From contig JAPKEJ010000006.1 of assembly GCA_028822155.1 (NCBI GenBank), positions 1-64,000 on the forward strand: a DNA stretch of 64,000 nucleotides, in the 5' to 3' direction. This DNA comes from Porticoccaceae bacterium. Lineage in GTDB: Bacteria > Pseudomonadota > Gammaproteobacteria > Pseudomonadales > Porticoccaceae. How positions within the stretch are numbered: the first letter of the stretch is position 1; each line of letters opens with the position of its first letter. The notes under the pieces were generated by a model. The model made no database searches. It had not been told where the DNA came from and saw only the letters and a list, made by a program, of their open reading frames with translations. The position numbers were made by a program, and so were the translations under genes. Below are positions 17,743 through 44,077 of this stretch, in pieces.

Positions 17743-17838
17743 TCGAACAACACCGCTAATGCAACCACCTGCGTAGTAAAAAAAGTTATTAATCTCTATT
17801 GTTGCCGCTATTTTTAACGGATGCTCTGTTATAATGGT

Positions 17839-18004
17839 GGTGCCTGAGGTGTTTGCCAGCCAAGAAGTCCCTGAGCCGATAATTATTATCCGGCTTCTTT
17901 CTGTCAACATTGTTGTGCAATTCCGTGCGTCGGAAAGCCTGATATGTTGCGAAAGTCGCCAACTTGAACTCTTCGGTTCAAGGCCACGTTGGCAGCGGCA
18001 CCCT
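17839..18004 (+). ncRNA. ssrS: 6S RNA
   Basis: AAGTCCCTGAGCCGATA motif, CTTGAACTCTTCGGTTCAAGG 3' hairpin, closing stem GGTGCC(17839-17844)/GGCACC(17997-18002); -10 TATAAT at 17830-17835; zapA-ssrS-fthC synteny. Confidence 0.92.
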
Positions 18005-18030
18005 GGGGTTTTATTATAGGTAGAAAGAAA

Positions 18031-41711: not shown

Positions 41712-42668
41712 CTAGAGCTCTGAGATTGCCGCTCTTTTTTGAATCAAGCCGACTATTTTCTCTGAGAGCCATTGATGAATTGGTGAACCGGAGGTGCGTT
41801 GATGTTGAAGTAAAACTAAATTAATTTTGCCTTCATGTGGAATATCTTCAGGGAAACGTTTACGTATAATCCGATGCATTTCTCGCTCCATCGTCTCTCC
41901 GTACTTAGCTGCAACCATAAGACAGTCCGTATCACATACCGTTTCCATTGCCGTCATCAACTGATTGGTAACCAGAGTCTTTTTTCGCTTAAGACCCAAT
42001 TCTCGAAGCGCTCGATCAAAACGGGCATCTGTTCTTGCGCTAACTCTCTTAGAGATTAATAGATAATATTGGATAAACGGATATTCAAGAATTTCCGCCA
42101 GCGTAACTGTGTCTTTATTCGCTAATGGGTGGCCTTCACGCATCCAAATCGATGGCGTGAAAATAGCTAGGGGTGTTGTGATGATATCTTCTGTCGTGGT
42201 CTTTTCAATATCAATCGCAAAATCTAAAACGCCTTCCGCTAACTCACCCGTGACTGAATCAGTTTCACTCGAGATAGATAAAATAAGCCCAGGCGCATAT
42301 TGGGTCACCACTTTAGTTAATTCCGATATTAAAGAGATAGCGACAAATTCAGGTACGGCGATGGTAATTTCACCCGTATAAGTTGCAGGATCAAACTCCC
42401 CTTCACTAACCATATCCAGAATGCCGTCCAACAACCTCGGCAACCGTTGCTGGAGGTCCCGCGCTTTTGGAGTGGGCACCAACTCATTACCGGTTCTGGT
42501 AAACAGCGGATCATCAAGTTGATAACGTAATCGCTGAAGCACTCGACTCATCGCTGGCTGACTAATGAACAGGCGCGCTGCCGCGCGAGTAACACTTTTC
42601 TCTTCAAGCAGAGCCTGCAACGAAACCAGTAGATTTAGGTCAAGCCGCGAAAGCTTTTGTAAATTCAT
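41712..42668 (-). CDS. LysR-type transcriptional regulator (start chosen at MNLQKLSRLDLNLL; ORF track extends to 42695)
   Basis: LTTR HTH DLNLLVSLQALLEEKSVTRAAARLFISQPAMSRVLQRLR and substrate-binding domain. Confidence 0.95.
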   Translation of the reverse strand: MNLQKLSRLDLNLLVSLQALLEEKSVTRAAARLFISQPAMSRVLQRLRYQLDDPLFTRTGNELVPTPKARDLQQRLPRLLDGILDMVSEGEFDPATYTGEITIAVPEFVAISLISELTKVVTQYAPGLILSISSETDSVTGELAEGVLDFAIDIEKTTTEDIITTPLAIFTPSIWMREGHPLANKDTVTLAEILEYPFIQYYLLISKRVSARTDARFDRALRELGLKRKKTLVTNQLMTAMETVCDTDCLMVAAKYGETMEREMHRIIRKRFPEDIPHEGKINLVLLQHQRTSGSPIHQWLSEKIVGLIQKRAAISEL

Positions 42669-42698
42669 AGTAACCTCTTTAATAGGACATACCAAAAA

Positions 42699-42715
42699 CG
42701 CATATAGTTAATGCG
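42699..42715. promoter_or_regulatory. candidate LysR box, copy 1
   Basis: CGCAT-ATAGTTA-ATGCG dyad 31 bp upstream of the LysR start codon; core repeated identically at 42953-42967. Confidence 0.65.
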
Positions 42716-42725
42716 ATAAATGCAT

Positions 42726-42754
42726 TTGGATTATGCATGCGCAGCAACTATATT
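42726..42754 (+). promoter_or_regulatory. predicted promoter of unit 1: TTGGAT-N17-TATATT
   Basis: -35 42726-42731, -10 42749-42754; aligned with the unit 2 promoter. Confidence 0.6.
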
Positions 42755-42760
42755 AGCAAC

Positions 42761-42921
42761 CTTGAATCATCGATTATAGTTTTCCGGCTTCAGAACAGCT
42801 AAGAATTAGGGTCAGAAACTAACTCGGGACAGCACCTCAAAATTCGCTTGCGATCATTACCCCTCTTAATCCTGCTACAGGATTTTTTAAAGAGACCTTT
42901 CTAAGGTCTCTTTTTTTTTAT
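42761..42921 (+). ncRNA. candidate small RNA (unit 1), about 160 nt, ending at intrinsic terminator
   Basis: Promoter plus terminator with no ATG in between; conserved 3' module shared with unit 2. Confidence 0.5.
42868..42920 (+). terminator. tandem hairpins / intrinsic terminator, copy 1
   Basis: AATCCTG-CTA-CAGGATT then AGAGACCTT-TCT-AAGGTCTCT followed by a long T-run. Confidence 0.9.
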
Positions 42922-42952
42922 GTTTCGAAAAACTCTTAGTCATACCATTTTT

Positions 42953-42967
42953 GCATATAGTTAATGC
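42953..42967. promoter_or_regulatory. candidate LysR box, copy 2
   Basis: GCATATAGTTAATGC identical to copy 1, followed in both by ATGCATTTG after 5 nt. Confidence 0.65.
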
Positions 42968-42978
42968 ATTTAATGCAT

Positions 42979-43007
42979 TTGTTATATGACCCTGTAATCA
43001 ATATAGT
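42979..43007 (+). promoter_or_regulatory. predicted promoter of unit 2: TTGTTA-N17-TATAGT
   Basis: -35 42979-42984, -10 43002-43007. Confidence 0.6.
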
Positions 43008-43053
43008 GCATAGATCGGAGCAATAATGCTCTCAACAGATTAAGGAAATAGAA

Positions 43054-43161
43054 ATGACACTCGTGTACTTGCTACTAGGTTTCGCTGGACTAGCAGGCGC
43101 TGCAATTGCGAAGGATGACTTCGTCAAGTTGGAAGCACCAGAAATAAAGAATAAGCAGTAA
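43054..43161 (+). CDS. 35-aa hydrophobic microprotein MTLVYLLLGFAGLAGAAIAKDDFVKLEAPEIKNKQ
   Basis: ATG preceded by TTAAGGAAATAGAA (SD AAGGA); own promoter and terminator; below the ORF-track length cut-off. Confidence 0.7.
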   Translation: MTLVYLLLGFAGLAGAAIAKDDFVKLEAPEIKNKQ

Positions 43162-43228
43162 GAAAAGTAGCCCATTTAGCGGCGACAAAAATAGCTTTAC
43201 CAAATTCAGTTTGAACCAAACCCCTCTT

Positions 43229-43278
43229 AATCCTTGCTATAGGATTTTTATAGGGACCTCCTAAGGTCCCTTTTTTTT
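43229..43278 (+). terminator. tandem hairpins / intrinsic terminator, copy 2
   Basis: AATCCT-TGCTAT-AGGATT then AGGGACCT-CCTA-AGGTCCCT-TTTTTTT. Confidence 0.9.
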
Positions 43279-43447
43279 ATCTTTTCTTTGTCACAGTTTT
43301 TAGAATCCCATAATCACAGATTCTTTTCCTAATTTATTAATACACACTTGCATAATAAAGGGTTACTATTTGTCACTTACAAGGTAATGTTGTCGGCGCG
43401 TATATTCCCGTATCGGCATAAATCAATATTCAGGAGTTCTCATTACT

Positions 43448-44077
43448 ATGCACACCGTACCTAATACCCTTGAGGACGAAAAGCCGTTTCTGTCTAACTT
43501 TCATAGAAGGCGTTATCCAGCGAAGAGTACAATTATTTATGCCGGCGATAAGGCTGACGTACTCTACTATCTTGCTAAAGGAACTGTTAGCGTCTTAGTG
43601 GAAGATGGGAATGATGAGAAAGACATGATCGTGACTTACCTTAACCCAGGCGAGTTTTTTGGAGAAATGGGTCTTTTTGAGGAACATCCGCGCACTGCTT
43701 GGATTAAAGCCAAGACCGAATGTGAGGTATGTGAAATTAGTTATTCCAAATTCACAGCCCTTTACCAGAAAAACCCGGAAATTTTATTTTCCATCACTAA
43801 ACAAATTGCCGAAAGACTCAGAGAAACTACCCGTAAAGCCAGCGATCTTGCTTTCTTGAGCGTCACTGGGCGTATTACTCACGTGCTTAAAGATCTGGCC
43901 AATCAACCTGATGCTATGACTCACCCAGATGGGATGCAGATTAAGATTACTCGCCAGGAGATTGGACGAATTGCGGTTTGCTCGCGTGAAATGGCCGGAA
44001 GAGTCATTAAAGAACTTGAAAGCCAGGGTGTCATATCCGTAGCAGGGAAAACCATCGTGCTCTTCGGCGCCCGGTGA
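43448..44077 (+). CDS. crp: cAMP-activated global regulator CRP/Vfr
   Basis: Cyclic nucleotide binding fold [63 protein letters not shown]. Confidence 0.94.

Follow-up and report, generated by a model that had tools for sequence, protein, structure and literature searches.

In Vibrio cholerae, the short VcdRP transcript combines a 29-aa protein with a base-pairing segment that contains four cytosines (PMC8672173). Its cytosine run base-pairs near the translation starts of target mRNAs, and the small protein plays a role of its own. The same source also cites the control of SgrS-SgrT by SgrR (PMC8672173). GcvA controls glycine cleavage genes in addition to GcvB, which is noncoding and single (PMC1557403). 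Here we describe a locus in which a LysR-type gene stands beside two short tandem units, one with a peptide and one without. It lies in a window of 64,000 nucleotides, the whole stretch of DNA that was analysed, from a SAR92-clade genome (Porticoccaceae; 2.44 Mb, 108 contigs). Our comparisons of related genomes make it likely that a dedicated LysR protein drives tandem small RNAs with a C-rich seed, one of which would be dual-function and encode a membrane peptide. No description of this LysR-unit system was found in the open-access papers searched, nor was any link there between SAR92 and sRNA or peptide regulation of such a kind. The original prediction had not recognized a described system either, and our database searches agree: Rfam gave no match above the gathering score at the locus or in ten related loci, GcvB was matched neither in the window nor in those ten loci, and the peptide had no match of meaningful score among Pfam or NCBIfam models. 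The only Rfam match in the window lies elsewhere and is a 6S RNA (17838-18013, + strand, RF00013, 85.2 bits). SAR92 bacteria are widespread in the sea, and the locus would represent a new family of sRNA and micropeptide with its own regulator.

The genes of the locus run in the order coq7, LysR (reverse), unit 1, unit 2, crp and trpC (reverse), with the names coq7 and trpC taken from translations (Table 1). The same locus is present in named SAR92-clade and Porticoccaceae records, including HTCC2207, MOLA455, H921 and H231. A divergent LysR gene beside an architecture that occurs twice had been proposed, and re-reading both units in the sequence confirmed this with small corrections. The predicted protein has both HTH_1 and LysR_substrate above the Pfam cut-offs, while no named NCBIfam equivalog reaches its cut-off (best BsrA, 122.9 bits vs 480). 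The layout is that of a LysR-sRNA divergent pair, with a divergent short RNA gene and regulator-like promoter sites.

Table 1. Features of the locus by position in the window; RNA elements and transcript ends are predictions.
Feature	Position	Strand	Basis
LysR-type regulator	41712..42668	-	divergent from units; Pfam HTH_1 E 2.5e-17, LysR_substrate E 1.1e-16
Unit 1 operator, GCATATAGTTAATGC + GCATTTGGATTATGC	42700..42736	+	centres 22 bp apart; second box overlaps -35; 0-mismatch pattern match
Unit 1 promoter, TTGGAT (42726-42731), 17 bp, TATATT (42749-42754)	42726..42754	+	sequence
Unit 1, predicted noncoding RNA sRNA-A, about 160 nt	42761..42921	+	3' end conserved in clade A
Mini-hairpin AATTCG-loop-CGATC, unit 1	42841..42855	+	14/14 sRNA-A copies, loops variable; read by eye
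C-rich block ACCCCTCTTAATCC, proposed base-pairing seed, unit 1	42859..42872	+	near invariant in 40-sequence alignment
Hairpin 1 AATCCT/AGGATT, unit 1	42868..42884	+	stem invariant, loop variable
Intrinsic terminator, unit 1	42889..42919	+	terminator scan (42889-42913); homolog stems vary in sequence, stay paired
Unit 2 operator, GCATATAGTTAATGC + GCATTTGTTATATGA	42953..42989	+	0-mismatch pattern match
Unit 2 promoter, TTGTTA (42979-42984), 17 bp, TATAGT (43002-43007)	42979..43007	+	sequence
Unit 2, predicted dual-function transcript (peptide mRNA and sRNA-like 3' end)	43014..43278	+	sequence comparison, fold
Possible 5' leader hairpin GGAGCA-AUAA-UGCUCU	43017..43032	+	predicted fold
35-aa peptide MTLVYLLLGFAGLAGAAIAKDDFVKLEAPEIKNKQ	43054..43161	+	28 complete ORFs conserved, ribosome-binding-like site upstream
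Constrained RNA element within ORF, codons 15-29, possible long hairpin	43096..43140	+	codon uniformity above every control window
C-rich block ACCCCTCTTAATCC, unit 2	43220..43233	+	near invariant in 40-sequence alignment
Hairpin 1, unit 2	43229..43246	+	stem invariant, loop variable
Intrinsic terminator, unit 2	43252..43278	+	terminator scan (43252-43271)
crp/vfr gene	43448..44077	+	conserved neighbour outside units; NCBIfam CRP NF008732 above cut-off

The box before each unit (42700-42728 and 42953-42981) is exactly as first described, and the -35/-10 pairs with 17-bp spacers are borne out in both units. The reported box stands, but the full operator is larger and comprises two boxes, the first reading GCAT-N7-ATGC and the second GCAT-N7-ATG, with centres 22 bp apart and the second overlapping the -35. 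A two-box operator with its second box over the -35 is a layout expected for LysR-type regulators. The unit 1 operator motif also occurs upstream of units in the other SAR92 genomes. We searched 38 genomes with a 36-bp operator pattern, allowing up to three mismatches. With zero mismatches, the 2.44-Mb genome contains exactly two sites, which are those of the two units, one of the signs that the repeated architecture did not arise by chance. With up to two mismatches, only this locus is represented among the SAR92 operator matches listed from the 38 genomes, each match being one per unit or the palindromic site read in reverse. Since the full operator is confined to this locus, the LysR protein probably has no further full-strength target in SAR92, a claim that covers the full operator and leaves room for weaker or half sites.

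Unit 1 had been described as having no ATG, and a scan of its transcript found no ATG-started ORF of at least 30 aa. The 3' blocks of the two units are also present as reported (42859-42884 and 43220-43246), each followed by a terminator detected by the scan. In the 40 aligned 3' ends, the C-rich block and the hairpin 1 stem are near invariant, and covariation cannot test hairpin 1 because it barely varies. The six-base terminator cores differ in sequence and keep their pairing among the 51 type-1 ends, which have nine distinct cores; the 33 type-2 matches have ten, at least one of them a misparse. Covariance model R2, which does not contain the window sequence, matches both 3' ends of the window (E 3.6e-8 and 9e-7). 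In addition, model R1 recovers the units of R2 and vice versa, which suggests that the 3' ends are homologous. Weak R1 matches in other families (G116 and G079) proved to be tRNA-Ser gene terminators, and further matches examined there lay within coding sequence or beside tRNA genes, or were lone terminators; the R1 match in G401 is genuine and led to a LysR locus. Both sequence features sought for an Hfq-dependent sRNA are present, as the terminator tails are U-rich (T-runs) and Hfq is encoded in all ten genomes tested, including reduced ones.

The 35-aa peptide of unit 2 was confirmed as an ORF at 43054-43161. Its conservation is almost genus-wide and accompanied by an SD-like site, and its invariant residues persist despite synonymous change at several codons, a mark of coding selection on a small ORF. 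AlphaFold2 predicts a single helix spanning residues 2-30 (mean pLDDT 79.6). The same ORF appears constrained at the RNA level. Compared with codons for identical amino acids in lysR, crp and coq7, codons 2-3 and 15-20 are far more uniform, and mean uniformity across codons 15-23 is 0.76, compared with 0.60 for the best 7-codon window among the 245 of these controls. This is strong but indirect evidence for RNA-level selection, since part of the effect could come from the codon bias found in genes that are very short or highly expressed. Pairing is possible between codons 15-16 (GGUGCU) and codons 27-29 (AGCACC), and the predicted fold allows an inner stem, GCGAAA/UUUCGC. In this arrangement 86.5% of cells are paired, vs 27-50% when the partner is slid and 86.2% in shuffles, which is no excess; pairs altered on both sides number 4, vs 1.7 expected from shuffles. 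The case for a hairpin inside the peptide ORF is suggestive only. At the 5' leader hairpin, homologs carry the variants GAGC/GCUC and GGGC/GCCC by eye, and RNAalifold, run on the MAFFT alignment, finds no consensus pairing. The original prediction had also remarked that the distance from box to CCCCTC differs between the two units by 108 nt, the length of the unit 2 ORF with its stop. This is a coincidence, as the equality fails in four sister-genome comparisons (differences of 114, 113, 113 and 130 vs ORFs of 108, 108, 105 and 114 nt).

To ask whether the RNA is selected apart from the peptide, we compared about 45 SAR92 genomes and counted the seed over 44 loci. A search at the DNA level found the region in 34 of the 35 other genomes of the genus (35 of 36 with the window's own), where two layouts predominate. 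In clade A, which includes the window, the peptide-less unit comes first and the peptide unit second. In layout B, the peptide unit is followed by a peptide-less unit of related type and then by an osmC-like gene. One genome, that of L053, has two peptide-less units and a peptide unit. Another (G007, L069/L005) has two or more peptide units in tandem, interrupted by assembly gaps (runs of N). The LysR tree recovers clade A with an SH-aLRT of 89 and the reduced-genome clade R with 100, with B around both; by parsimony, there is moderate support for a single origin of the clade A peptide-less copy. All five genomes of clade R (1.2-1.4 Mb, assemblies 78-92% complete) keep the LysR gene and the operator along with two units that contain the C-rich block, the second unit of L072 ending at a contig edge, and a profile search found no significant peptide match in any of the five. 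The absence of the peptide at this locus is direct because the locus itself is assembled, and loss of the peptide with retention of the RNA units in five genomes lends comparative support to an RNA function independent of the peptide. In seven clade A genomes (L045, L053, L054, L057, L063, L064 and L068), the peptide unit has a decayed block or none, with part of it retained at L057, and the peptide-less copy keeps an intact block. At least one unit has an intact C-rich block at all 44 SAR92 loci.

These patterns bear on whether only the peptide matters, in which case the units would be ordinary short mRNAs with tandem terminators and unit 1 a decaying copy without its ORF. Such an explanation accommodates the strong conservation of the peptide and the similarity of the two units at either end. 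However, the seed block is conserved beyond the needs of a terminator, it is kept by the peptide-less copy where several peptide units have lost it, the clade R genomes retain both units after losing the peptide, and peptide-less units recur in other genera, all of which make a peptide-only locus improbable. Peptide loss, block loss, codon constraint and recurrent peptide-less units together indicate that selection maintains both the RNA and the peptide in SAR92, which upholds the initial suggestion of selection on RNA output as well as on the peptide. As related genomes show all states (peptide with seed, seed only, peptide without seed and up to four peptide copies), the gain and division of jobs can be tested directly.

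In the mechanism we favor, LysR would act as a dedicated local regulator that binds both boxes before each short unit and most likely activates their transcription upon sensing an effector. Unit 1 would give rise to a noncoding, probably Hfq-dependent sRNA in which the C-rich seed ACCCCUCUU lies exposed as a single strand, flanked by small hairpins, and this seed would pair with target mRNAs at G-rich ribosome-binding regions (AAGAGGGG-like). Unit 2 would be a dual-function RNA, encoding a one-helix peptide with a putative membrane location and role and carrying the same seed and hairpins at its 3' end. After the peptide-less copy arose in a SAR92 subclade, some peptide units may have lost the seed, thereby dividing the two jobs. 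Candidate targets were screened as AAGAGGGG-N2-14-ATG in 40 genomes, from which 60 sites were fetched. The motif is about twice as frequent near ATG as its reversed control, which ribosome-binding-site bias alone could explain, and recurrence among the 60 fetched sites amounts to two orthologous pairs between close relatives. Two TonB-dependent-receptor-like proteins from different genomes (L127 and L134) have AAGAGGGG right before the start codon and are possible targets, although not significant ones.

The lack of a convincing target set, together with a single near-invariant block in all units and the multiple copies, would also suit short RNAs that titrate a protein or sponge another sRNA, the C-rich block then being the protein-binding or sponge site. 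Against this, the block with its U-rich terminator tail resembles an Hfq sRNA module, and C-rich stretches next to hairpins are known to serve as mRNA-pairing seeds, as in VcdRP (PMC8672173). We regard titration or sponging as improbable. Still further from what the locus suggests is a type I toxin-antitoxin system with a hydrophobic toxin peptide and an RNA antitoxin, an idea that the short one-helix hydrophobic peptide, the tandem copies (up to four at L090) and the adjoining small RNA bring to mind. Units 1 and 2 share sense sequence, they are preceded by the same LysR-type operator and the RNAs outlive the peptide, all of which speak against such a system and leave it very improbable. Complementarity between the two units is no better than shuffled, self-complementary terminator stems aside.

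Returning to regulation by a dedicated LysR protein, its ortholog is single-copy in 104 of 113 Porticoccaceae genomes and occurs in all 14 genera. We read 20 regions upstream of LysR by script, ten of them in full, and 18 of the 20 contain short units that end in a terminator and include a C-rich stretch or the peptide. Units of g25, g144, g145, g148, g149 and g151 encode a GLLGSAIAxDDL-like peptide, which is present in four tandem copies at L090. No such peptide was recognized in g24, g143, g146, g147 and g150, where a strongly diverged version could escape. The C-rich block differs among genera (CCCCTCTT, CCCCCTGTA and CCCTCCTA). LysR genes kept without boxes, peptide and hairpins, named at the outset as evidence against the module, are not the rule. 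The exceptions within the family are G484, where LysR is present beside no recognizable unit, and G475, a locus read later together with G485, which has the peptide; the G474 region ends early at a contig end. Outside the family, nothing recognizable accompanies the distant LysR homologs of G105, G271 and G285. A shortened peptide, MDVILGFTSLAGITIAKDDMSDR, and a CCCCTCTTAATCC block form a unit away from LysR at L088 and L089 (G407 and G401), adjoining long repeat-rich proteins; this near-identical sequence is found in bins of two families, so binning contamination is possible.

Similar layouts appear in up to four families beyond Porticoccaceae. A small hydrophobic peptide and a terminator lie beside the LysR homolog in f4 (G038 and G084) and f27 (G162), and peptide-less units do so in f48 (G152) and f43. 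These LysR proteins are treated as homologs, with orthology not established, because identity is 35-42%. Beside five f43 homologs (L239, L240, L241, L244 and L245), the divergent unit lacks a peptide and carries a terminator and a conserved CCCATCCAGGTCC block; it looks like a separate sRNA family. With slightly less than even confidence, we propose an old, multi-family, LysR-led RNA system of marine Gammaproteobacteria that has a single-locus regulon and in which peptide and seed were repeatedly joined, duplicated, divided and lost. If true, this system would provide a natural series for the evolution of dual-function sRNAs.

Among known systems, OxyR and OxyS likewise pair a LysR-type regulator with a divergent sRNA, but the OxyR regulon is large and the pair includes neither a peptide nor a tandem array. 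The CcsR or cuckoo RNAs with CcaF1 also link a small protein gene to repeated C-rich sRNAs, but they belong to Alphaproteobacteria, depend on an alternative sigma factor instead of LysR and carry a different motif. SgrR resembles the LysR protein described here as a dedicated regulator over a dual-function sRNA with a small protein, SgrS-SgrT, which differs in its lineage and in having no tandem peptide-less copy; SgrR itself is not a LysR-type protein. GcvA and GcvB share with our locus a LysR-family activator and a divergently transcribed sRNA (PMC1557403). VcdRP is repressed by CRP and forms a single unit in place of the tandem array seen here, and the sections of its description used here report no dedicated LysR partner (PMC8672173). 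What VcdRP and unit 2 have in common, at the level of design, is an RNA that also encodes a peptide and carries a C-rich segment, which in unit 2 is a proposed pairing seed.
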